The notes below the pieces were generated by a model that saw only the letters and a list, made by a program, of their open reading frames with translations, ran no database searches and had not been told where the DNA came from. The translations under genes were made by a program, and so were the position numbers. From Prevotella sp. (GTDB lineage: Bacteria; Bacteroidota; Bacteroidia; Bacteroidales; Bacteroidaceae), in assembly GCA_017508965.1 (NCBI GenBank), contig JAFWQT010000043.1:1-53520 (forward strand): a stretch of 53,520 nucleotides of DNA, given 5' to 3'. Below, in pieces: positions 24,206-36,912 of this stretch. How positions within the stretch are numbered: the first letter of the stretch is position 1; each line of letters begins with the position of its first letter.

Positions 24206-24231
24206 CACGGAAATAGTAAAACGTGATAAAA

Positions 24232-24840
24232 ATGGGATTTTTCAGTAAACTGTTTGGAAAGAAAGAGGACAACGCCGGCGGAATGGAAAACTATATGACG
24301 CTGGTGCGCGTGTACTTCCAGTCGGCTATTGCCGAGAATGTGGGCATCACTAACCTGGCTATGCTGCCCGACTTGCGCGTGTTCAAGACTACGCTGCACG
24401 TGCCTACGGAGCGCAACAAGCTGGGCATTGCCGAGAAGCGCCAGTGCAAGAAGATGCTGAAGGACTTGTATAAGACGAACGACAATTTCTTCGACGAAAT
24501 CGATAAGAGCATCAAGAAGGGATGCCGCAAGATTCAGGACGTGCAGACGTATATGATTCAGTTCCAGAGCTTCAGCAACGACTTGATGATGCTCACCGGA
24601 AACCTGATGAAGTTCAAGCTGCGAGTGCCCAGCTTCTTCAAGTCGGCCATCCGTGCGATGACTGAGAAGACGGTGCACGAAATATTCACGAAGAACGACT
24701 ATACCGACGCGGGTGTGGTGAAGACGGTGCTCGCCATCCGTCAGCTGAACAAGCGGCTGAACTTCTCGGAGCAGTGGGTCACCGACTTCGTGTATCAGGT
24801 GGTGATGCTGGCGAAGAAGGAGCCGAGGAAGAAGGAGTGA
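24232..24840 (+). CDS. Conserved-looking cytoplasmic protein of unknown function
   Basis: 202 residues from ATG 24232 (MGFFSKLFGKKEDNAGG), chosen over a GTG three codons upstream. No signal peptide or membrane span. Rich in Lys, Met and Phe, mostly helical. The N-terminal FFSKLFGKKE is of the amphipathic type that can touch membranes. No family recognised. It has its own strong promoter and is followed by a GC-rich palindrome. Confidence 0.7.
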   Translation: MGFFSKLFGKKEDNAGGMENYMTLVRVYFQSAIAENVGITNLAMLPDLRVFKTTLHVPTERNKLGIAEKRQCKKMLKDLYKTNDNFFDEIDKSIKKGCRKIQDVQTYMIQFQSFSNDLMMLTGNLMKFKLRVPSFFKSAIRAMTEKTVHEIFTKNDYTDAGVVKTVLAIRQLNKRLNFSEQWVTDFVYQVVMLAKKEPRKKE

Positions 24841-25036: not shown

Positions 25037-26686
25037 ATGAAATACAACAGATTGATGGCCGTTGTGGTGCTTTCATGCGTGGCAGCATGGGCTTCGGCAT
25101 GCACTAATTTTATTGTGGGCAAGAATGCCAGTCAGGACGGGTCGGTGATGTGCACCTATAATGCCGACGACTATGGTATGTTTACCGGACTCTGCCACTA
25201 TGCGGCAGGCACGCATGCGAAGGGCGAGATGCGCCGCATTATCGACTACGATACGCACGAGTGTCACGGGGAGATTCCTGAGGCACCGGTTACTTATAAT
25301 GTAATCGGAAACATCAACGAATACCAGGTGAGCATCGGCGAGACTACCTTTGGCGGTCGCGAGGAGCTGGTGGATTCTACGGGCATCATCGACTATGGCT
25401 CGCTGATGTATCTCGGACTGCAGCGCGCCAAGACTGCCCGCGAGGCTATCCAGGTAATGACGTCGCTGGTGGAGCAGTACGGATTTAATTCGGAGGGCGA
25501 GACCTTCACCATCTGCGACCCCAACGAGGCGTGGATTATGGAGATGATTGGCAAGGGCCCGGGGCGCACGGGTGCCGTTTGGGTGGCCATCCGCATTCCT
25601 GACGATGCCATCTGCGCTCATGCCAACCAGAGCCGCATCACTACGTTTAACCTGAAGGACAAGAAGAACGTGCTCTACTCGAAGGATGTCATCAAGTTCG
25701 CCCGCGAGCAGGGCTTCTTCAGCGGAAAGGACCAGGATTTCTCGTTTAATGCGGCCTACGCTGCTCCCGACTTTGGCGGACGCCGCTACTGCGAGGCCCG
25801 CGTGTGGAGCTTCTTCAATCATTTCTCGACCGACATGAACCGCTACCTGCCCTATGCAATGGGTAAGGAGAAGGATGCCGAGCCGATGCCGCTGTGGATT
25901 ACCCCCAACCACAAGGTGAGCCTGCAGGAGCTGGAGGCTTGCATGCGCGACCACTACGAGGGCACTCCGTTTGCACTCGACGGCGATCTGGGTGGCGGTA
26001 TCTGGCAGATGCCTTACAGGCCCACACCGCTAAGCTTCGAGGTTGACGGAAAGAAATATTTCAACGAGCGTCCCACCAGCACCCAGCAGACGGGATTCTC
26101 GTATGTGGCTCAGCTGCGCGGATGGATGCCCCGTCAGATTGGCGGCATTCTGTGGTTTGGCAACGACGACGGCAACATGGTGGCCTACACGCCCGTGTAT
26201 TGCTCGGCAACCCGTCAGCCTGTGTGCTACAACACGCCCGGGGCCGATGCCGTTACGTTCAACGACCGGAATGCGTTCTGGGTTTGCAACTGGGTGAGCA
26301 ACATGGTTTATCCCCGCTATTCGCAGATGTTCCCGTCGCTGAAGGAGGTTCGCGACTCGCTGGAGCAGAGCTATTTCAAGGAGATTCCGGCCATCGACAA
26401 GAGGGCAGGGGAGCTGCTGGCTGCTTCGGAGCGTGAGGCTGTGGAATATCTTACTGACTATGGATGCCGCAAGGGCGACGAGATGATTTCACGTTGGCGC
26501 CAACTGGCTGTCTATCTCATTGTGAAGTACAATGATATGGCGGTGAAACCCGAAAAGGACGGAAAGTTTGAAACCACTCCCGAGGGACTGGGAGCAAGGG
26601 TGAAGCGTCCGGGATTCCCCGAAGCCACCGCACGCATGCTCATCAGGCAGACCGGCGATAAGTTTGCCGTGCCTGATGAGAAATAA
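25037..26686 (+). CDS. C69-family dipeptidase (PepD-like), exported
   Basis: 549 residues. After a hydrophobic N-terminus, ACTNFIVGKNASQDGS places Cys22 at the expected new N-terminus, where C69 (Ntn-hydrolase) enzymes carry their nucleophile. Later signatures are SIGETTFGG, EAWIMEMIGKGPGR, ANQSRI and YCEARVWSFF. These peptidases cleave dipeptides and some longer peptides, probably in the periplasm here. The stop codon lies inside a 22-bp repeat unit shared with the convergent gene. Length matches Bacteroidetes relatives. Confidence 0.9.
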   Translation: MKYNRLMAVVVLSCVAAWASACTNFIVGKNASQDGSVMCTYNADDYGMFTGLCHYAAGTHAKGEMRRIIDYDTHECHGEIPEAPVTYNVIGNINEYQVSIGETTFGGREELVDSTGIIDYGSLMYLGLQRAKTAREAIQVMTSLVEQYGFNSEGETFTICDPNEAWIMEMIGKGPGRTGAVWVAIRIPDDAICAHANQSRITTFNLKDKKNVLYSKDVIKFAREQGFFSGKDQDFSFNAAYAAPDFGGRRYCEARVWSFFNHFSTDMNRYLPYAMGKEKDAEPMPLWITPNHKVSLQELEACMRDHYEGTPFALDGDLGGGIWQMPYRPTPLSFEVDGKKYFNERPTSTQQTGFSYVAQLRGWMPRQIGGILWFGNDDGNMVAYTPVYCSATRQPVCYNTPGADAVTFNDRNAFWVCNWVSNMVYPRYSQMFPSLKEVRDSLEQSYFKEIPAIDKRAGELLAASEREAVEYLTDYGCRKGDEMISRWRQLAVYLIVKYNDMAVKPEKDGKFETTPEGLGARVKRPGFPEATARMLIRQTGDKFAVPDEK

Positions 26687-26702
26687 AGTCTGACTATTTG
26701 AA
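26681..26702. repeat. Single 22-bp repeat-like unit across two convergent stop codons
   Basis: AAATAAAGTCTG (26681-26692) matches the reverse form of core A exactly as in array 2. The TAA stop of the C69 gene (26684-26686) and the TAG stop of the convergent coiled-coil gene (26694-26696) both fall in the same 22 bp. Confidence 0.5.
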
Positions 26703-27233
26703 TAATGCCACCGTAGCCACCATTGTCACAACGCTGCACACCGTGATGATGGTCAGGCTCACGGCGAGCAGCAATTTCAGCCACGTGGGAATGCGGTTGC
26801 TGCGTTCCTGTGCGGCCTCGCGGCGCTGGTCTATACGGCGTATCATGTTGTTCACGTTTTCCACAAGCTGCCAGTTGTACTGCTCCATTTTGTTGACCAG
26901 CACGTCGAGTTTGTGGGGCACGTCAGCAAGGTCTTCCAGTCGGGTGGCAATCGAGGGGTAGGCCTTCACCTGCTGGTCGAACTGTGCTTTCATCGTGTTG
27001 CTGACGTCGATGAAGGCATCGCGCTCTTCGTTGATAATGTCTTTGAAGGCTTCGCTCTGCTCTACAATCTGGCGCTTCAGTTCGGTGACACTATAATAAG
27101 AGGTGTCCTTGACGTCCTTGAGTGCCTCGCGCAGGGCGTTATCGCTCTCGCCGAGTTCCTTTGCTATTTCCTGTTTGTGGCGACGGAAGAAGTCGCGTAT
27201 CTCAATAAGTACTTCCAGTTCTTCTTTTTCCAT
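26694..27233 (-). CDS. Tail-anchored coiled-coil protein (gene 6 of the tubulin/actin operon)
   Basis: 179 residues. Residues 1-140 are highly charged and helical with heptad-like spacing (for example KDIINEERDAFIDVSNTMK). A single hydrophobic helix at about 152-175 (LKLLLAVSLTIITVCSVVTM) ends the protein, so most of it should face the cytoplasm from the inner membrane. No family recognised. It starts 26 bp after the preceding coiled-coil gene and is the last gene of the operon. A linker or scaffold role for the cytoskeletal partners is inferred. Confidence 0.75.
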   Translation of the reverse strand: MEKEELEVLIEIRDFFRRHKQEIAKELGESDNALREALKDVKDTSYYSVTELKRQIVEQSEAFKDIINEERDAFIDVSNTMKAQFDQQVKAYPSIATRLEDLADVPHKLDVLVNKMEQYNWQLVENVNNMIRRIDQRREAAQERSNRIPTWLKLLLAVSLTIITVCSVVTMVATVALFK

Positions 27234-27259
27234 TATTATTTTTTCTCCTATCTCCTTTC

Positions 27260-27883
27260 TTATTTAATCATCTGCAACTCGGCGGGCGATGTCACCACCC
27301 AGTAGTTGCTCTGTTTCTTAACTATACCTTTGCTTATCAGCTGGAATCCGCGGGCTTCCTTCAGCGGGCATCCCTCGTAGCGCACCACACCCTCGATGGA
27401 GGGGAGCGACTTCAGGCGCATCAGGTCGATGGGGGCAAACTCTCCTTCGGTAGGCGAATTGTAGTGGACGGTGAAGAAGCATTCGTCGCGAAGCTCATCG
27501 TACTGGTCGTTGAAAAGTGCGGTCTCTGCATCGCCTTTGGGTGAGCCGAAGAACCCGTCTTTCAGCTGCTTTGTGGCGGGGCGTGAAGGCATTGGTGCCT
27601 GCTGGGGTGAATTGCCTGAACCGGCAACAGAGGCTGCTATGCGTGCGGGACGCTCCAGTTTGTCGAGCCTTGCCCCGATGGCTTTCAGCTGCTCCGACAC
27701 ATCTGCCTCACGCTGAGCTGAATCCAGCGCCTTGCGGATGGCACGCAGAGAGTCTTCGGTGTCGTAGACGTTCTTTTCAACCTCTTTTTTCAGACGCTGC
27801 ACGTCGAGCAGGATCTTGACGGAGAGTGCCAATGCTGTGGCGGCAATAATCAGTACGATTGCGATGAATTCTGGGCTGTTCAT
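27260..27883 (-). CDS. N-terminally anchored coiled-coil protein with C-terminal globular domain (operon gene 5)
   Basis: 207 residues. One membrane helix at about 6-26 (FIAIVLIIAATALALSVKIL), a coiled coil at about 28-80, a Pro/Ala/Ser linker at about 85-110, then a soluble domain of about 95 residues (FFTVHYNSPTEGEF, VVRYEGCPLKEARGFQLI) that I do not recognise. It begins 9 bp after the giant actin-like gene, so the two are tightly coupled. The layout suggests a membrane adaptor whose soluble domain contacts another operon product; this is inference. Confidence 0.75.
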   Translation of the reverse strand: MNSPEFIAIVLIIAATALALSVKILLDVQRLKKEVEKNVYDTEDSLRAIRKALDSAQREADVSEQLKAIGARLDKLERPARIAASVAGSGNSPQQAPMPSRPATKQLKDGFFGSPKGDAETALFNDQYDELRDECFFTVHYNSPTEGEFAPIDLMRLKSLPSIEGVVRYEGCPLKEARGFQLISKGIVKKQSNYWVVTSPAELQMIK

Positions 27884-27892
27884 ATTCGGGAT

Positions 27893-30800
27893 TTATTTGA
27901 TTGCGTGAAAAATAGCGTTCGACAATTCGTGGATGGCTCCCTTTACGGGGTAGAAGAATAGGGTTTCTTCCAGTCGGTCCTCACCCTCGCTTTCCTCGCG
28001 GCGCTGCTGCAGACCCTTGCGCAGATAGGTGGCAATGTCTTTGTAGCATTCATCGCGGGCAATCTGGAGCGACTGCTTAGAGACGCCGAAGTTGGCATCG
28101 AAGTCGAAGAGGTCGTCGAGTTCGTTGAGCACGAAGTCGAAGAAGGTCTTCACGGCATCTGCCGAGCGGTTGATATAGGTGTCGTCCACGCGGTCGTAGG
28201 TGTCTTCCTTTCCGATGAAATCGGGACCGAATGCCTTCTTGATGACAATCTTGTCGCGGTCGTCGGTCAGAATGTCGCCCAGCAGTCCGCCCTTGCAGGT
28301 GCTCTCCTTTGGATTGCTGCCGCTCTCGAATCCGAGTATCTCAAGGTCTTTGTCGTAGGGCTTGCCTACCACATGCTCGATGATTCGCTTGGTGAATGTT
28401 GCCAGCTGCTGGTTGTCGGTGGTGAGCACGGTGATGAGTTTCGAGCCGTTACCCGAGAACGAGATGTGGCGCGGCATCTCAAGGTTCTTTGCCTTCAGTA
28501 TCTCAGCCACGTGATAGATGATGGCGGAGTAGAACAGGATGAAGATAATCTTGAAGTTCTCGTCGTCTTGCAGCATGTGGTTGAAGTCGACATACTTTGA
28601 ATCCAGTCCGCGCACCATCGAGTTCTCTTTCAGCGTGAAGAGGAACGAGGCCATGTTGGCCGGCTGTACGTTGTTCTCGCTATTGAAGATTGACAGCAAC
28701 TCGGTCAGTTTGTTGTCGGTGAGCACCTTCAGAATCTGCTCCTTGTAGCAGTCGACGATGCCGTTCGACATATCCACGTCGGAGAAGGTGTTCTCGAATA
28801 CGGAGTTGGCAGCGAAGCGGAAGCTCGTCACGTACTGTATTTCTTTATCGCGCGCGAAGGCGATATCAGTGGTGCCGCCACCGATGTCGATGTTCACCAG
28901 GTTGGTGGCGTTGGCATAGCGGCGGAAGAAATACTGTATTGGTGCAGCCGACTCCGACATGTTGGAGGTCTGTGCCGTTGCGAAATACTTGTGGTAGGCA
29001 TTGTTCCAGGTCTCGCGCAGGTTCTTCAGGCGCTTGGGTGCCATACTGATGGGGTAGAACCAGGTGATTTTAACACGCTGAAGGTCGCCCTGCTCGGTGA
29101 GCACTTTGTTGCGGAGCATCAGCATCAGCGTCTCCACATAGCTTTCCATCACGCGCAGTATTTCGCCCTTACCCCACTTGATGTTATAGATGTTGCGGTT
29201 GTAGAGGTAAGATTCGCGCTTGTCGTAGGTGAGCGGGATGTTCACCATTCCGAACGGACGTACTATCTCGTGCCACTTGGTGGTCTGTGCGGCAGAGAGT
29301 ACCGTGCGGGTGGGGAAGTGGAAATCGCTCAGGGCGGTAACGGCCAGCGGCAGGAAGTCGCGTTCCATGAGTGACTGCTCGGCCAGCAGGTCGTCTTGCA
29401 GATGGCGCCCGTTGAACTGAAGCATCGAGGGAGTGAAGAACTCGCTATAGGGCTTTCCGACCTGCTCGTACGAGAAAGTTTGCGAAGTGGGAGCATTGTT
29501 CACCCGGTATTCGATGTGGGTGTTTGAGGTGCCCAGGTCGATGGCGAAGTCGAAGCTGTTCACGCTCTGCTGCTCCTGGAAGACCGGCACAATGACGCCC
29601 TTGTTGCCTTCAGCGTCGCTTACCTCAATATGGTCGAAGTTGCGCTTCTCGATGGTATAGTTCTCGGCCTTGTAGTTGGCGGCGCGGTTCACGTTGCGGC
29701 AGTCCATCATGATGTCGGGCAGCTGCTGGTCGCCCTCGAAGAACTTCAGACTGTAGTTGCGCGAATAGGTTGAAATGCAGCTCACGGTATAGATGGCGTC
29801 CTCCTCCTGCTTGAACCTTACCAGCGGCATAACGAATCCGGCAAAGTCGAACTCGCTCATTCCGCCGATGTTGTGATGTGGGTCGGCCTCGTTCTCGCCG
29901 TAGAAATTGCGTGAATACTCCACGTATTTGTTGCGCGAGTGACTCTTAACGGGAATGCGCAGGGTGGCTTTCACCGAGCCTCCTGCAAGGCGTTCCATCT
30001 CGAACATCGGCATTCCGTCGGGCATAGTGCGCATCAGGTCGTTCACGTCGAAGTATTTGAAGAACAGCGGCTTCAGCGGAAGCAGATAGCTTACTTTCTC
30101 TTCGCCGAGCTGGATGCTGCCGTCGAAATAGTCCTTATTGTTTAATTTATGAGGAACGCGCACGATGGTGTCTTCCATCAGGTCGCCAATGGTGATGAAG
30201 GCGCGGATGGAACCGTCGAAGGGAAGTTCGCGCTTCGAGAGGTTCTGTTCTTCAACCACGCAGGGAGCGGCGTTTATCTTGCCCCAGGTGTCGGTTGTGT
30301 AGAACATGTCGCGATAGCGGTTGCCCGAGTCGATGGGCAGCACAAGCGGCAGTATGTCGACCTCTTTCTTGGTGTCGATGATGAAGTCGCTCTCGCTTCC
30401 ATTATTCACTACCGAGCGCTTCAGCAGGGGATAGCCCAGCACCTCGACGGTGTTGTTCTGGCGTTCGTCCTTCACTTCAATCTCGGAAAGTGAACGTATA
30501 TCGGCATCTGAAATAGAGCGCAGCTGCGACTTCAGCGTGTTATCCGTGATGGCGCGCATCGTCAGCTTCAGGTATTCTTCCACCTCGGGGAAACGTGTGG
30601 CAAAGTCGGGAATCGACTTGCGCAGGATGAACCAGAACTTGATGTATTCAGAATCGCGCTTGTAGAGTGGGTAATAGTCGTCGTCGAACGGAGATGACTG
30701 TCCGAAGTTCAGGCTTTTCGAGACATAGTCGAGCTTGTTGGCATTCGAGAAGAATACCGTAGCGGGTGATGTGGCACCGATGATATTCAGCTCGTCGGGG

Positions 30801-31291
30801 CCTTGCAGGAAGTTCAGCAGATAGATGTTGTGCAGGTCGCCGAAGTTGTAGGCCTGTGCATCGCTCTGCATATACTTCTCCAGGGCATCGCCGAGATAGC
30901 GGTGTCCATCCATCTCGCTCTGCTTCAGTTCCTCAATCATGAGGGCCGAGTCCCACGAGATGATTTCTATCTTGTTCTTGTATTTGTCGATGTTGAAGAA
31001 AATCTCGCCCACATCCAGTGCGTCGCTCACCATTTTGTGGAAGATGGTCTTGCCGTCGAGGTCGGTTTCGTGCGTCTTCTTGTGGGGTGTAGTGACCATC
31101 TTGAAGGCGTTCTTCACCAGGTCGATGCGGGCAAAAGGCGAGGGAATGCTTGTGATTTCATTCCTTGCCGTAGCTCCATCGGGGTCGTCGATGTTGTCGC
31201 GGTTGTTACTGTTGTATGGGAATGAAGGACTTTCGTTCCAGTCGTTGAAAGTGGAAGCTCCTTCGGTGTAGAGTCGGAATATTTTAGACAC
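27893..31291 (-). CDS. Giant protein: unrecognised N-terminal half fused to actin/Hsp70-type ATPase core (operon gene 4)
   Basis: 1132 residues, GTG start at 31291 (a stop lies three codons upstream in frame and no ATG precedes the conserved-looking start). Residues from about 575 hold a full actin-superfamily ATP site: FAIDLGTSNTHIEYRV (phosphate 1, about 577-592), VNIDIGGGTTDIAFARD (phosphate 2, near 795-812), and HISFSGNGSKLITVL (adenosine, near 935-950). The first 570 residues have no domain I know; the start (FRLYTEGASTFNDWNES, IPSPFARIDLVKNAF) looks conserved in style. No signal peptide or membrane span. SrfB-like virulence proteins share a large size and an actin-like fold, so a distant link is possible but unproven. 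Confidence 0.85.
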   Translation of the reverse strand: MSKIFRLYTEGASTFNDWNESPSFPYNSNNRDNIDDPDGATARNEITSIPSPFARIDLVKNAFKMVTTPHKKTHETDLDGKTIFHKMVSDALDVGEIFFNIDKYKNKIEIISWDSALMIEELKQSEMDGHRYLGDALEKYMQSDAQAYNFGDLHNIYLLNFLQGPDELNIIGATSPATVFFSNANKLDYVSKSLNFGQSSPFDDDYYPLYKRDSEYIKFWFILRKSIPDFATRFPEVEEYLKLTMRAITDNTLKSQLRSISDADIRSLSEIEVKDERQNNTVEVLGYPLLKRSVVNNGSESDFIIDTKKEVDILPLVLPIDSGNRYRDMFYTTDTWGKINAAPCVVEEQNLSKRELPFDGSIRAFITIGDLMEDTIVRVPHKLNNKDYFDGSIQLGEEKVSYLLPLKPLFFKYFDVNDLMRTMPDGMPMFEMERLAGGSVKATLRIPVKSHSRNKYVEYSRNFYGENEADPHHNIGGMSEFDFAGFVMPLVRFKQEEDAIYTVSCISTYSRNYSLKFFEGDQQLPDIMMDCRNVNRAANYKAENYTIEKRNFDHIEVSDAEGNKGVIVPVFQEQQSVNSFDFAIDLGTSNTHIEYRVNNAPTSQTFSYEQVGKPYSEFFTPSMLQFNGRHLQDDLLAEQSLMERDFLPLAVTALSDFHFPTRTVLSAAQTTKWHEIVRPFGMVNIPLTYDKRESYLYNRNIYNIKWGKGEILRVMESYVETLMLMLRNKVLTEQGDLQRVKITWFYPISMAPKRLKNLRETWNNAYHKYFATAQTSNMSESAAPIQYFFRRYANATNLVNIDIGGGTTDIAFARDKEIQYVTSFRFAANSVFENTFSDVDMSNGIVDCYKEQILKVLTDNKLTELLSIFNSENNVQPANMASFLFTLKENSMVRGLDSKYVDFNHMLQDDENFKIIFILFYSAIIYHVAEILKAKNLEMPRHISFSGNGSKLITVLTTDNQQLATFTKRIIEHVVGKPYDKDLEILGFESGSNPKESTCKGGLLGDILTDDRDKIVIKKAFGPDFIGKEDTYDRVDDTYINRSADAVKTFFDFVLNELDDLFDFDANFGVSKQSLQIARDECYKDIATYLRKGLQQRREESEGEDRLEETLFFYPVKGAIHELSNAIFHAIK

Positions 31292-31350
31292 GGCTATTTA
31301 TGTTTTCTTTTTTGTTTATTCTTATCACCATTCTTCTGCTGAAGCATCGC

Positions 31351-32748
31351 TTAGAATCCGAATTTCTCCTTGCACAACTGCTCGGTGGCGATGCTGTACA
31401 TCTCCAGCCAGCGGCTTTCCTTGTCGCCCTTTGCCTTTTTCACGGCATTGTTCAGGCGGTCGTAGAACAGGTTGTAGTGGGAAAGCATCGTGAAAACGGA
31501 TTTCGGTTTCTGTCCCACCACCACGTTGAACGGCTCGTCGTTGCATTCAAGGTTGAATAAGTCGAGCGACCTCTTGTTGTCTTTCATCTCGGAAATCCAC
31601 ATCCTGTAGTCCTCGAGGAACGACTTCAGGTTCTGCATGAAGGGAGTGTTATAGAAAGACTCGTCGAAGTTTCCGTTGTTGGCGGCCAGCTTTTTCTTGC
31701 TCACGAAGTCCCATTTGTCGTAGAGGCAGTTGGCCGTCATCATGAACTGAGTGAGGGGCACACGCAGCATAGCGGTCATTTCATCGTAGAAGGAGTCCAT
31801 GTGTACGGTGCGGTGATTATCCTTGATGCCCAGCTCCTTGTTGACAGTCGGTCCTTCGTGATGCTTGTTGGCAAAGTCGATAGCTGCCGAAGCTGCCAGG
31901 AACTCAATCAGATGGGCTGAGTTGCGCTGCTGGGTTCCTCCTTCGTGGTTCTCGTAGGTGTTCGACATATTGTCGGCCAGGAAGTAGAGCGCGTTAATCT
32001 GGTTGTTCTTCGAAATGTTGTTTTCGTAGTAGGCCAGCGCCGACTTTGCCTTAGAGATGAAGGTCGACGAGTCGATCTCGCTCTCCTCGCTCTGCTCAAG
32101 CTTGAAGTAGGGCAGGATAGTGACGGCTCCGATTTCGGCCTTGTTTATCAGGTCGTTGTTGGGGAATTCTTCGCCTGTGCGCAAGGTCTTCAGCAAAAGC
32201 GGGAATCCACTGGCACCCGTTCCGCCGAAGATACTGCTTACGATGAATATCTTGTCGCCCTTCTCGAATGAGTTGGCAAACGTGATGAAATCTTCGGAAT
32301 TTACAATCTGGTTGAGCACCACGCTGCCGATGTTGGGATTTCCCTTGAAACCTACGTTCATGCTCGAGGCCAGGTTCTTCTCTGAGAACAGCATCCGCAT
32401 CATGGCCTGGTTCTTCTTGCTCATGGCGGGCAACTCGATGAACTGCTGGAACTGGCGGTCCTCGGTGTCCTTGATGAGCAGGTTGTAGTTGGGCAGCAGA
32501 CGGTCAATCTTGGTCTTGAAGAACGTTCCGTGACCTTTTTCTGGGAAGGTGAGCTGCTGGCGCAGGGTTCCGTATTTGTTCATCAGGGCAACCGTGCGGG
32601 TGAGGTCGGCATTTGCCGAGTCTGGGTCAATCACAATTGGAACCATTTCGCTCTGCGGAGTCTTAACGCCGGCTGCCAGCATCATGGTGAGTGAACGGAG
32701 CACACGCGAACCGGTTCCGCCTATTCCGAAAACATATAGTTTGGACAT
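31351..32748 (-). CDS. Tubulin/FtsZ-like GTPase, Tubulin_2-type (operon gene 3)
   Basis: 465 residues. The N-terminus VFGIGGTGSRVLRSL (about 6-20) is the glycine-rich first loop of tubulin/FtsZ proteins. SSIFGGTGASGFPLLLKTL (about 169-187) is the tubulin signature, normally GGGTG(S/T)G, here GGTGASG. DPDSANADLTRT (about 41-52) fits the acidic second loop. The family looks closest to the Tubulin_2-type proteins outside the cell-division FtsZ clade. Such proteins may form GTP-dependent filaments. Gaps to neighbours are 54 and 59 bp. ATG start. Confidence 0.85.
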   Translation of the reverse strand: MSKLYVFGIGGTGSRVLRSLTMMLAAGVKTPQSEMVPIVIDPDSANADLTRTVALMNKYGTLRQQLTFPEKGHGTFFKTKIDRLLPNYNLLIKDTEDRQFQQFIELPAMSKKNQAMMRMLFSEKNLASSMNVGFKGNPNIGSVVLNQIVNSEDFITFANSFEKGDKIFIVSSIFGGTGASGFPLLLKTLRTGEEFPNNDLINKAEIGAVTILPYFKLEQSEESEIDSSTFISKAKSALAYYENNISKNNQINALYFLADNMSNTYENHEGGTQQRNSAHLIEFLAASAAIDFANKHHEGPTVNKELGIKDNHRTVHMDSFYDEMTAMLRVPLTQFMMTANCLYDKWDFVSKKKLAANNGNFDESFYNTPFMQNLKSFLEDYRMWISEMKDNKRSLDLFNLECNDEPFNVVVGQKPKSVFTMLSHYNLFYDRLNNAVKKAKGDKESRWLEMYSIATEQLCKEKFGF

Positions 32749-32802
32749 TTTCTTTATTTCGTCGTTATTTTATGAATGATTATCGTTCAGTTTCAATTTG
32801 AA

Positions 32803-33261
32803 TCAGAATGGAGCACGCGGCACGTTGGTGCTTCCCCACTTGATGAGATAGGATATGATGAGGAAGGTGACCATCGAGAGGATCATGTTGGCAAAGCCGA
32901 AGCTGATGCAGTCGTTCTCCATGATGCCGAGCGGTATAAGCTGCCCGGTGGTCTGGTCCATCTTTTCCATCATGCCGTCGAGCAGGTCGCTCAGCACCCA
33001 TCTCCATCCGAGGAAATAGTTGATTAGTCCGTTAACCACCAGGAAGATGCACCATCCCCACCAGTTGTTCAGCTTCGGATGGTTAACCACATAATAGAAA
33101 ATCACGGCTACAAGCAGCGAGATGCCTATCATGGCAAGTCCGATACTCATAAACATGTTGCTTTGCTGGCGTTCTGTAGCCTCACCAGCAAGATAACTGG
33201 CCAGTTCTAAACCAAAGAGATCGTCGAAGAGGCAGTAGATGGTTGTGAAAAATTGTCCCAT
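32803..33261 (-). CDS. Multi-pass membrane protein of unknown function (operon gene 2)
   Basis: 152 residues with three clear membrane helices, at about 37-59, 67-86 and 119-141, and an amphipathic N-terminus (FTTIYCLFDDLFGLELASYL). The loop at about 87-118 is acidic. No family recognised. It starts 9 bp after the vWA gene. It could be the integral-membrane base that recruits the cytoplasmic filament proteins. Confidence 0.75.
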   Translation of the reverse strand: MGQFFTTIYCLFDDLFGLELASYLAGEATERQQSNMFMSIGLAMIGISLLVAVIFYYVVNHPKLNNWWGWCIFLVVNGLINYFLGWRWVLSDLLDGMMEKMDQTTGQLIPLGIMENDCISFGFANMILSMVTFLIISYLIKWGSTNVPRAPF

Positions 33262-33270
33262 ATTGTTGTG

Positions 33271-34476
33271 TTATTTTTTTACGATGTTGAATTTAATGTT
33301 GGCAAGTATCTTGTCGTTCTTGTAGGCATCGGCAATGCCGCCGATGATATACTTGATTCCTGTGGTCTTGTTCAGGTTCTTACGGATGGTTTTGCCCGAG
33401 TCGTCATTCACGGCTTCAATCCAGACAGGCATTTCCTGCTGAATCAGTTTCAGTTGCTCGCCCGAAGGATTCATCTTGCCGTCCATATCGATGGTGAGCA
33501 GATGGGTGTAAGGACTCTGCTGGTCGTCGATTCTTTCAACGGCACCCACACCCACGGTGGCGTTCTGCGTGCGATAGTTCTCGGGGTTCATCACGTAGGT
33601 GTCGTCTTGAAGTGTAGACTGCAGGTTGGCCTTGAGCTTCATGTGGCAGCGGCCCTTGCGGTCGGAACGGCACTCAAGCTGGTTCTTGTGGGCAACGCCA
33701 AACTCATTAGTCATGTCGAAAGAGACGTCGCTGAAGGTGGTGAAGGCACAGTAGTTCTCAATGCCGTGCTTCACCTCGCTGAATGGAATGTTTTTGTTGA
33801 GCCAGGCCAGCACATCGCGGTCGCCGATGACAAACATGAAATACGGACGCTTCACGCCCTCGAGTTCTTCGCCGCCCTTGCTGTAATAGTACATTCCCTT
33901 GAATTCAGACTTCATCCGGAACACCTCAACGCTCAGGTTCTTCAGCTTACGGCGATACTTGGTGAAGGCATTGCGGATGTCAATCTGGCGGTTGATGAAG
34001 AATTTCTCGGCCTCGCCGTCAGGCACGTCGAGAATGCAGTCGCTCACGAAAATGCTTACCGTATTCTTGTTCTGTGTAGCAAGCATCATCTCAATCATCT
34101 GTGCAATATCAGAATTAGCACGGCTTCCGCCTGCTTGCTTGAAAATTTCGGGATTCATGTCGGTGATGAAGCTCTTCAGCGAACCGCCGTAGGGAATCAC
34201 CTGCGTGTTGATGAAATTCAGTTGGGGAGCGCTTTGCGAATAGCTGGCCATCGTGCTTACATAGCTGTAGATGGCGTCTTTCAGTTCGGCGCCAGTACCC
34301 ATGTAACCGTCCATACTGCCTGAATTCTCGATGTAAACCTTGATTTGCGGCTGGGCTTCCTTCAGTTCTGTCTTAACGGTTTCCCACTTCACGACAAGGT
34401 TGTGCTCACGTGGAATGAGCATGTAGATGATAAGCAATAAAATGACGATTGTTGCTGGTATAATGACTTTTTTCAT
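33271..34476 (-). CDS. Membrane-anchored von Willebrand factor A domain protein (operon gene 1)
   Basis: 401 residues. One N-terminal membrane helix (about 4-22) is followed by a vWA-like fold. The metal-site motif DxSxS appears as IENSGSM, with Glu50 in place of the usual Asp, then Ser52 and Ser54. SRANSDIAQMIEMML and VSIFVSDCILDVP supply the later positions. The C-terminal 180 residues are a separate beta-rich region. The helix may be an uncleaved anchor, putting the vWA domain in the periplasm. vWA proteins usually mediate protein contacts. It is the first gene of the operon, with a -7 box 24 bp upstream. Confidence 0.8.
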   Translation of the reverse strand: MKKVIIPATIVILLLIIYMLIPREHNLVVKWETVKTELKEAQPQIKVYIENSGSMDGYMGTGAELKDAIYSYVSTMASYSQSAPQLNFINTQVIPYGGSLKSFITDMNPEIFKQAGGSRANSDIAQMIEMMLATQNKNTVSIFVSDCILDVPDGEAEKFFINRQIDIRNAFTKYRRKLKNLSVEVFRMKSEFKGMYYYSKGGEELEGVKRPYFMFVIGDRDVLAWLNKNIPFSEVKHGIENYCAFTTFSDVSFDMTNEFGVAHKNQLECRSDRKGRCHMKLKANLQSTLQDDTYVMNPENYRTQNATVGVGAVERIDDQQSPYTHLLTIDMDGKMNPSGEQLKLIQQEMPVWIEAVNDDSGKTIRKNLNKTTGIKYIIGGIADAYKNDKILANIKFNIVKK

Positions 34477-34499: not shown

Positions 34500-34507
34500 C
34501 AAAATTA
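34500..34507 (-). promoter_or_regulatory. Probable -7 box for the vWA-tubulin-actin operon
   Basis: TAATTTTG on the minus strand, 24 bp before the ATG at 34476; matches TAnnTTTG. The -33 region reads CTTTCC rather than TTTG. The gap upstream also holds array 3. Confidence 0.5.
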
Positions 34508-35299: not shown

Positions 35300-36535
35300 T
35301 TACTCTTTGTCGGTATAGAAACGAATCAGCCTTTCGATGGCTCTCTGGCACACAGGACAGAATTCGGGATGCTCGTTGGTGCGCATCCGGCAGTCTTCAT
35401 AGGCACGATAAACGCCCTTCAAGCTATAGCCAGCACCTTCGCGTAAACCAGCCCCAACAGACTCCATATCCTTCCACTTGCTGTCAAAATCTTTCAGCGT
35501 TGTGATGTTAGGTTCCCACGGCTCGATATCACTTGGATACATGGGAATCTGCTCGTTCTCGTAGGCATATTCGTCGGCTAGTCCGGCAAAAGAATGTCCG
35601 AACTCGTGAACCACCACCGACTTATAGCTTCTGTGGTGCGTCATGCTCAGGTTATAGCTGTTCAATATGCCGCCACCGCCATAGTTGTCGGTATTCACTA
35701 ACACGATAATATGCTCGTAGGGAATTCCTGCAAGCACGTCGTGTAACTGCTTTAGATTTAGTGTGGTTAGGTATCTGTCGCTATAGAAAGTGTCAAAGTG
35801 GCTTCCGAGTGCAGTATCGAGCCAGATTCCATCATGTGGAATGCTTGTCCCGGAATCCTTCGAGGGACTTTTCACGGCTACGATATTGAACCTGTCGCGC
35901 AGTTTCTTGAAGGGCTCATGACTGAATAGTGCTTCCACCGCCGTGTTGACGTCATCAAGGAAAACGTCCATCTCGTGCTGCTGGTATCCTTCTGCCACAT
36001 AGGCGATGTGAATGCAGTTCAGGGTGTCTTTTGATTGTTGGATAATTTCATAAGGAGTTTTATCCTTTCCAATTTGGCGTATAAGTATATCCGAGGGACT
36101 GACGGAGTGGGTGAGTGAGGTCGTTATTTCGCGCCTGTTGTTCCTCAGGTTCACGGTTACGTCAATCGTATCTTTGGGCATAGGAATCAGGAAAACGTTC
36201 TCGAAACTGCGTTGCGAGGTTTCTGCTTCGGGATACGAGAGCCATTCCTGGAAAAGAGTAGAGAATGAATTGGTGTAGATGACCTGCTGTGAACGGTGGT
36301 CGCGCACGATAATCTGGCCGTTGCCCTCCACGGGAAGCTGAGCCAGCCTGTGGCGCTTTCCATACCATCGTGGCATCATGTTCAGCTTGTCCACATAGAT
36401 GTTCTGCTGGCGCGAATTACCGGCAAAAATGTAATCTATGCGTACGGTGGAATCGCGGAAAAATGTATCGAAGTGTTGCGCTTTTGCCGATGGAATGGCA
36501 AAAAAGCCCAAAATGGCAAGAATCAGGAATCTCAT
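35300..36535 (-). CDS. M64-family (IgA peptidase-like) metallopeptidase, exported
   Basis: 411 residues from ATG 36535, which overlaps the upstream stop as ATGA and gives a good signal peptide (MRFLILAILGFFAIPSAKA). The zinc site is VVHEFGHSFAGLADEY near residue 285 (HExxH with a downstream Asp-Glu). Before it come IAYVAEGYQ and VNTDNYGGGGI, both usual in M64 proteins of Bacteroidetes. The C-terminus has a Cys pair (CPVCQRAIERL). The N-terminal 160 residues form the separate M64 N-terminal domain. The name comes from a Clostridium IgA protease, but the substrate in Bacteroidetes is unknown. Confidence 0.88.
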   Translation of the reverse strand: MRFLILAILGFFAIPSAKAQHFDTFFRDSTVRIDYIFAGNSRQQNIYVDKLNMMPRWYGKRHRLAQLPVEGNGQIIVRDHRSQQVIYTNSFSTLFQEWLSYPEAETSQRSFENVFLIPMPKDTIDVTVNLRNNRREITTSLTHSVSPSDILIRQIGKDKTPYEIIQQSKDTLNCIHIAYVAEGYQQHEMDVFLDDVNTAVEALFSHEPFKKLRDRFNIVAVKSPSKDSGTSIPHDGIWLDTALGSHFDTFYSDRYLTTLNLKQLHDVLAGIPYEHIIVLVNTDNYGGGGILNSYNLSMTHHRSYKSVVVHEFGHSFAGLADEYAYENEQIPMYPSDIEPWEPNITTLKDFDSKWKDMESVGAGLREGAGYSLKGVYRAYEDCRMRTNEHPEFCPVCQRAIERLIRFYTDKE

Positions 36536-36912
36536 TTGCGTTTTTGCTTTAGTTCTTTCCATAGATATTTCACATAGTCGTGCTCCCAGTCGCTTTCCTT
36601 GAAGCGCCGGTCGCCGTATTGCAGTATGTCTATGTCTACGGGGATATATCCGTCGTTCGAGTCTTCCTTATTGCGTCCGCAGCTGGTTTCCAGTTGTTTG
36701 AACCATTGTTTCAGTTCCTCATACGGCATATTGGTGGTAATCTGTGCCAGCGCATTTATGTAATAACCGTCGCTTCCATCGATGGGTTTTGTGCGCATGA
36801 ACTGCGTAAACCTGATGTCAGAACCAAACATCCCTCCCAGATACTCGCGTATTGAGAGGGCGTTGTCATGCTGGTTGCAATTAGTTCCTACGGCTATGAT
36901 TACCTTTGCCAT
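36532..36912 (-). CDS. HPPK (FolK)-like small protein, possibly not catalytic
   Basis: 126 residues from ATG 36912, shorter than usual FolK (about 150-160). The fold start AKVIIAVGTN and the DIDILQYGD segment (equivalent to the metal-binding LDLDI of HPPK) suggest 6-hydroxymethyl-7,8-dihydropterin pyrophosphokinase. However, the Arg that normally precedes LDLDI is missing (DGYIPVDIDIL), and the total length is low. It may be a degenerate paralogue rather than the folate enzyme. A longer upstream frame overlaps the LolA-like gene and is not supported. It lies 5 bp after the LolA-like gene. Confidence 0.65.
   Translation of the reverse strand: MAKVIIAVGTNCNQHDNALSIREYLGGMFGSDIRFTQFMRTKPIDGSDGYYINALAQITTNMPYEELKQWFKQLETSCGRNKEDSNDGYIPVDIDILQYGDRRFKESDWEHDYVKYLWKELKQKRK

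Follow-up and report, generated by a model that had tools for sequence, protein, structure and literature searches.

The window described here, a 53.5 kb contig from a Prevotella sp. genome (2.8 Mb, 71% complete), carries on its minus strand an operon of six genes in which those for a tubulin/FtsZ-like GTPase and a giant actin/Hsp70-fold ATPase lie side by side, accompanied by genes for a vWA-like protein, a small membrane protein, and two further membrane-anchored proteins. The best reading of its sequence is that it belongs, in reduced form, to the FtsZl1-vWA system, a predicted membrane-remodeling system (Makarova and Koonin, 2010; PMC2875224). Most of the relatives scored continue downstream into a pair of genes resembling MotA/ZorA and MotB/ZorB; the window appears to retain only the tail of the first of these. 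This anatomy, of the operon and of its relatives' gene sets, is as good as certain for a reading made from sequences; what such a machine might do is taken up in the last section. The elements of the operon, in order, are:

34500-34507, minus strand: -7-type promoter box TAATTTTG, 23 bp upstream of the vWA start codon
33271-34476, minus strand: gene 1, vWA-like protein, 401 aa (open reading frame (ORF) translation)
32803-33261, minus strand: small multi-pass membrane protein, 152 aa, between the vWA and tubulin genes (ORF)
31351-32748, minus strand: tubulin/FtsZ-like GTPase, 465 aa, of Tubulin_2/FtsZl1 type (Pfam, Foldseek, alignment)
27893-31291, minus strand: giant actin/Hsp70-fold ATPase, 1132 aa (model, Foldseek, alignment)
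27260-27883, minus strand: fifth core protein, 207 aa, with an N-terminal transmembrane segment, a variable linker, and a conserved C-terminal domain
26694-27233, minus strand: gene 6, 179 aa, a free-standing MotA/ZorA-like tail with a coiled coil and a C-terminal transmembrane segment, the MotA membrane domain being absent

Proteins of the core

A preliminary description of this DNA had paired a tubulin-like with an actin-like nucleotidase, and both assignments hold, as do the motifs it named (GGTGASG, DLGTSNT, DIGGGTTD, FSGNGSKL, and ENSGS), all of which are found in the translations. The tubulin-like protein just reaches the cut-off of Pfam Tubulin_2 (27.1 bits against 27) and falls below that of Pfam Tubulin (25.1 against 33). 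The best 50 Foldseek rows for its AlphaFold model (predicted local distance difference test score, pLDDT, 91) are all FtsZ, CetZ, or tubulin/microtubule structures (best E 1.8e-5). Their TM-scores are low (0.23-0.43) despite the significant E-values, which fits a remark in the available text of PMC2875224 that the T6-H7 region of FtsZl1 could not be identified. The nucleotide site is kept: G10, G11, G13, R15, and G175-A179 are invariant in all 67 aligned proteins, as is the GGTGA of the loop GGTGASG, so that the protein has the FtsZ-like N-terminal GTPase domain with a GGGTG(S/T)G-type loop expected of FtsZl1/Tubulin_2 proteins. No extended coiled coil following this domain was seen, by eye, in the 465 aa or the model; the same text gives one for the majority of FtsZl1 members, not for all.

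The giant actin has a long N-terminal region and, in its AlphaFold model (pLDDT 86), a domain at the C-terminal end with matches to MreB and Hsp70. Pfam gave only sub-threshold matches (Ppx-GppA, FtsA, MreB), and the best 50 Foldseek rows are all MreB/Mbl or Hsp70-type (best E 5e-9), with TM-scores of 0.15-0.20 by query length and 0.30-0.54 by target length, and root-mean-square deviations of mostly 10-13 Å. All three motifs of the actin/Hsp70 superfamily (phosphate-1, phosphate-2, and adenosine) are present on the actin fold. In an alignment of the window protein with 56 of 73 near-full-length relatives, D585, G587, T588, D802, G804, G805, and D809 are invariant (57 of 57); by stricter patterns, of 75 near-complete actins 74 have the phosphate-1 motif, 64 have phosphate-2, and 58 have the adenosine motif. 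A profile-profile comparison with FtsA-like proteins gave 96.5% over 56 columns around phosphate-2. SrfB was rejected as an identity for this protein: that family likewise has a large actin-like protein encoded in an operon, and no SrfB is among the window protein's Pfam matches at E ≤ 1.

The first gene had been described as encoding a vWA protein. The ENSGS motif is indeed present, giving ExSGS at the metal ion-dependent adhesion site (MIDAS) position where the canonical sequence is DxSxS; the fold itself is less secure, as the window protein searched singly has no Pfam vWA match, and the only matches of the family profile in the PDB are integrin alpha-M I domains, at weak E-values of 0.23-0.56. 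By eye, the protein has an N-terminal hydrophobic anchor followed by a probably periplasmic domain. The window protein has no lipoprotein-type Cys behind this anchor, unlike many of its relatives. Such a Cys is also missing, by eye, from the vWA proteins of loci L039, L040, L102, L103, L110, L113, and L116; these loci are motor-less like the window, apart from L103, which has too little downstream DNA to be scored. A general tie between loss of the motor and loss of the lipid anchor, striking at first sight, is not concluded from this: motor-bearing L053, L086, L117, and perhaps L080 also lack the Cys, and by regular expression it is present in 12 motor-less rows.

Conservation of the core and the motor of its relatives

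The preliminary description proposed a check of whether these genes co-occur across Bacteroidales, and the core does so. In a search of the family, 19 of 151 genomes had the tubulin, and most of the 18 loci fetched have the order vWA, small membrane protein, tubulin, actin; some members in the most divergent of these loci were placed by alignment position and length, without a search match, and one locus (L030) has only a 290 aa piece of the actin and no vWA found. Among the 80 best-scoring loci from a scan of named species, the actin gene follows that of the tubulin in all 80. The vWA and small membrane proteins were each recognized in 71 of the 72 loci having at least 2.5 kb upstream; the vWA gene not counted (L110) is present under an overlapping ORF, and L118 has an unlabeled 230 aa ORF at the membrane-protein position. 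A few loci (L091, L114) have an extra ORF within the set. These 80 loci are mostly from Bacteroidota, with one assigned to Spirochaetota, one to Campylobacterota, and two in Bacillota-labeled metagenome-assembled genomes (MAGs; L043 and L070), of which L043 is likely mis-binned, since its tubulin is identical to that of L044 from a Porphyromonadaceae MAG.

In a phylum-wide sample of 247 genomes the tubulin was matched in 7, in one of them (G365) partially and weakly. Among the actin matches listed, strong ones occur in five genomes, one at a contig end, and all five are among the seven tubulin-positive. A weak one (G334, E 4.4e-5) lies in a 1,302 aa ORF adjoining a divergent tubulin, an ORF that a second scan of this locus left unlabeled; the remaining matches listed are short, and the seven fetched lie in ORFs of 409-459 aa, which resemble FtsA. 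In two cyanobacterial plasmid loci, reached via the window tubulin, a giant actin gene (E 2e-46 and 7e-25) comes after that of the tubulin (E 4e-53 and 6e-58), so the pairing seems to reach beyond Bacteroidota, although two are few. One of them also encodes a homologue of the fifth gene (E 1e-6) and a lipoprotein of vWA type (E 7e-14); the other has no vWA match. Their small membrane protein was assigned by position only, and no motor genes were recognized in either.

Two loci have features of their own. One cyanobacterial locus (L119:13890-17740) encodes three consecutive fifth-gene-like proteins (E 1e-6, 0.017, and 7e-5), the third annotated as TM2 domain-containing. In the most divergent family locus (L038:4065-13126), the tubulin has 524 aa and the actin-like protein 1387; two genes on is a 412 aa zinc-ribbon protein that resembles, by eye, a P-loop GTPase, so that this locus may connect to FtsZl1 systems of the GTPase type.

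Neither phages nor plasmids carry the operon as a rule: there was no match in 50,697 phage records, and 6 of 72,556 plasmid records matched. Four loci came from IMG/VR, two of them near-identical; all have tubulin and actin, and vWA and membrane protein were recognized in three. A PHROGs scan of six neighboring proteins from these loci found an amidoligase and a DNA methyltransferase and no structural gene. A literature search, in which subscription papers and preprints were largely not covered, found no title or opening of an abstract with this gene combination.

Downstream of the core, most relatives have the fifth gene, then gene 6 (MotA/ZorA-like) and gene 7 (MotB/ZorB-like). Their gene 6 products, mostly of 430-600 aa, carry the signatures PLYLGLxGTMxGI and AMxAS and end in a lengthy coiled tail; those of gene 7, of about 215 aa, have FFWxSYxDLMT and an OmpA-like domain. 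Of the 80 best-scoring loci, 69 have at least 4 kb of downstream sequence: 60 of these encode the MotA-like protein, 54 the MotB-like one, and 54 both. Four further loci from the phylum sample include two with both motor genes (L128, L129) and two with none recognized (L130, L131). In each of four loci scanned, the PADLOC ZorB model matched gene 7 (best E 1.1e-11 to 5.9e-14) and the ZorA model gene 6 (best E 3.6e-5 to 6.6e-7). Among solved chains, the gene-7 profile is closest to 8VVN_B (E 1.7e-14), with 8VVI_A at E 5.5e-5; published Zorya work, in the parts available, gives these as type I and type II ZorAB, respectively. All 30 aligned gene-7 proteins have the membrane aspartate D15, which fits the critical aspartate of ZorB given in the same parts of that work.

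Behind the motor genes, 63 of 83 ORFs have enzyme matches (Trypsin_2 in 22, aspartyl protease in 13, Endonuclease_NS in 7, SNase in 4, and Exo_endo_phos in 3), and 26 of the 44 ORFs adjoining gene 7 have a lipobox by regular expression. A proton-channel-like pair and lipoprotein enzymes in one operon could suggest a TolQR- or GldLM-like motor for secretion or envelope maintenance, exporting or activating the enzymes. We consider this quite improbable: ZorB is the best solved chain for the gene-7 profile, ahead of chains named MotB, and the 14 families matched by the 63 post-motor ORFs include none that is secretin-like. Elsewhere among the downstream genes, L082:18297-19181 and L043:11727-12722 encode proteins that look by eye like J-domain proteins, behind motor genes and beside an Hsp70/actin-like ATPase, and L101:15571-16551, from a Sulfuricurvum MAG, has a Pfam HH_signal match (Hedgehog amino-terminal signaling domain, E 2.5e-13) after the fifth gene.

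The window's gene 6 matches positions 307-502 only of the gene-6 profile (E 5.6e-35), and its genome, at 71% completeness, has no other match to this profile and none to that of gene 7 (OmpA/ZorB-like). The genomes of L039 and L040 likewise match with the tail alone. An apparent loss of genes 5 and 6 from L040 was rejected; both are open, a minus-strand ORF having masked them. The ratio of nonsynonymous to synonymous substitution rates (dN/dS) for gene 6 is 0.03-0.11 in the three pairs of these three genomes. By these comparisons the window's gene 6 is an orphaned ZorA-like tail kept under purifying selection. In a tubulin tree (quick, with several long branches), the three group together in a starred clade, itself nested in a larger starred one whose 22 rows include 17 that are motor-bearing; over the whole tree, 62 rows have the motor, 21 lack it, and 15 are unlabeled, requiring at least 7 changes, 4 of them forced by starred branches. 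Two earlier statements are thereby narrowed: the absence of an OmpA protein is true of the window, while 54 of 69 relatives encode one, MotB/ZorB-like and with a MotA/ZorA-like partner; and of the two membrane-anchored coiled-coil proteins said to end the operon, one is the conserved fifth component and the other the orphaned tail.

The operon and its surroundings

The six minus-strand genes lie where the preliminary description put them, with gaps of 9, 54, 59, 9, and 26 bp in order. Its single promoter box is partly borne out: TAATTTTG is presumably a Bacteroidota-type -7 element, and a strict -33/-7 pattern has no match in front of the operon. The pattern TTTG-18/22-TAnnTTTG occurs 5 times in the whole window, against 0.54 expected from shuffles. 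Between the window and two relatives, dN/dS is 0.02-0.19 for all six genes, the fifth having the highest dN; these ratios are only approximate, since dS is 0.75-1.6, but indicate that all six are maintained. The closest named relative by the tubulin gene (96%) is a Prevotella MAG from goat omasum.

The operon is flanked by genes for a C69 dipeptidase (25037-26686) and an M64 peptidase (35300-36562). Each was matched in 18 of 20 genomes of the genus, two of the M64 matches being weak, where they lie on separate contigs or at least 170 kb apart; because they are not adjacent in congeners, comparison with an empty site is uninformative. A 205 aa plus-strand ORF nearby (24223-24840) has no Pfam match and a sub-threshold NCBIfam match.

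Known systems and possible functions

The relation to the FtsZl1-vWA system, raised in the preliminary description, is supported by the Tubulin_2 score, the GGTGA loop, and the vWA neighbor, which is found in operons of the majority of FtsZl1 members. The likeness to the system, as it appears in the available text of PMC2875224, extends to membrane proteins and, in relatives, OmpA. The window differs in having no OmpA protein (a feature of some FtsZl1 operons only), P-loop GTPase, or kinase; in the other direction, neither a giant actin-fold neighbor nor a MotB/ZorB-like OmpA protein with a MotA-like partner is mentioned in that portion of the paper. It places FtsZl1 in cyanobacteria; Bacteroides caccae is in a figure's species key, where the family is unstated. 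The giant actin had been thought to set the operon apart from FtsZl1 loci, a distinction that falls away with its position beside the tubulin in both cyanobacterial loci.

Remodeling of the membrane or envelope, with tubulin and actin filaments shaping the inner membrane and tethered by vWA and OmpA proteins, is those authors' own prediction in the text available. Anchors seen by eye on four of the six window proteins and the presence of two cytoskeletal superfamilies agree with it. It leaves unexplained the proteases and nucleases of the operons and their patchy presence (19 of 151 genomes in the family and 7 of 247 in the phylum sample), and the low TM-scores of the tubulin's FtsZ matches do not favor it; we regard it as unlikely.

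The reading we favor, a machine for envelope surveillance or defense that works like Zorya, has, by analogy, about an even chance of being the right description. The motor of the relatives resembles ZorAB (Mariano et al., 2025; PMC11890865, available text) in its MotA-like protein with a long cytoplasmic tail, its MotB-like protein with a membrane aspartate and a peptidoglycan-binding domain, and its modular effectors. It differs in that the enzymes encoded behind the motor, proteases and nucleases made as lipoproteins, belong to other Pfam families, and in the tubulin-actin-vWA core before it. The window itself is not Zorya: it has no ZorAB motor, and no Zorya effector was found in the scans made (for ZorC, ZorD, and ZorE, none of the six window proteins has a good PADLOC match; the relatives' post-motor genes were scanned by Pfam, one also by PADLOC).

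In such a machine, the vWA protein and the peptidoglycan-binding subunit would detect envelope damage or an invader there. The signal would then reach the tubulin-actin pair by way of the small membrane protein and the ZorA-like tail; the pair may be a cytoplasmic switch or scaffold, its GTP- and ATP-driven assembly setting a threshold or building a structure. Where present, the motor and a lipoprotein protease or nuclease would act in the periplasm on incoming phage DNA or proteins; in Zorya it matters for defense that ZorB binds peptidoglycan and that ions flow, and the tail of ZorA matters too, according to the available parts of the published work. Since the sensor, the NTPase pair, and the tail persist without the motor or local enzymes, they may function alone or with partners encoded elsewhere. 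More specifically, and as a tentative proposal with rather less than even prospects, this would be a distinct form of envelope immunity in which a cytoplasmic tubulin/actin machine, joined to a periplasmic vWA sensor and to a proton motor, licenses periplasmic lipoprotein proteases and nucleases, the window representing a motor-free form with the ZorA-like tail as adaptor.

Chaperone-type signaling is another possibility: an Hsp70-like ATPase acting on clients, with the vWA protein as peptide-binding co-factor and the tubulin as GTPase switch, and no filaments. It would stand near the GAP1-N2 GTPase systems (Kaur et al., 2020; PMC7159879), in which, in the text available, tubulin and vWA also occur and HSP70 is proposed, with tubulin, as an NTPase threshold. 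In those systems, of Firmicutes and Actinobacteria and with a TRAFAC GTPase, the tubulin theme and the HSP70 theme are separate and do not overlap, and that text has no proton motor; in none of the six window proteins did Pfam match a P-loop GTPase of TRAFAC/GAP1-N2 or other type. Hsp70-type domains do rank beside MreB in the Foldseek results, Pfam DnaJ is matched by 2 of the 63 post-motor ORFs, and vWA domains bind peptides in MoxR systems. However, MreB scores as well as Hsp70, and Pfam matched neither an Hsp70 substrate domain nor GrpE in any of the six, so this too seems improbable.

Several points weigh against the Zorya-like reading. We know of no defense phenotype for such an operon, and polymerization of the tubulin and actin, and with it the two-filament machine suggested in the preliminary description, is a prediction. 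PADLOC gave nothing better than E 0.013 for the six window proteins, and no system it lists was accepted for the window; among the relatives' upstream neighbors, 7 of 99 ORFs have an integrase domain and PADLOC matches are scattered, figures that lack a control set. The motor assignment has its own weaknesses: two gene-6 proteins scanned have no Pfam MotA match, gene 7 has only sub-threshold OmpA/MotB_plug matches, the gene-6 profile finds coiled coils best in the PDB, with many ahead of the ZorA chain 8VVN_C (E 0.005), and some PADLOC matches of gene 6 fall in the coiled coil. Membrane spans and topology were judged by eye, no predictor being used, and the 80 loci are the best by score of at least 510 confirmed relatives, not a random sample. 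The genome being 71% complete, a motor may lie elsewhere in it; conversely, the core can evidently exist without one, as the two cyanobacterial and several Prevotellaceae loci lack a recognizable motor.

A reviewer quoted with the 2010 paper (PMC2875224, available text) asked how an FtsZ-like protein of the cytoplasm could work together with vWA and OmpA proteins of the periplasm. Should the latter be ZorB-like, with a ZorA-like partner whose tail is in the cytoplasm, the two would form a physical link across the membrane, testable via one aspartate. Such a link would also put relatives of tubulin and actin into one conserved machine in Bacteroidota and Cyanobacteriota, with single loci assigned to Spirochaetota and Campylobacterota, and would tie an orphan system to phage defense. 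Kept under purifying selection in three genomes, the motor-free form is a natural experiment on the core alone.

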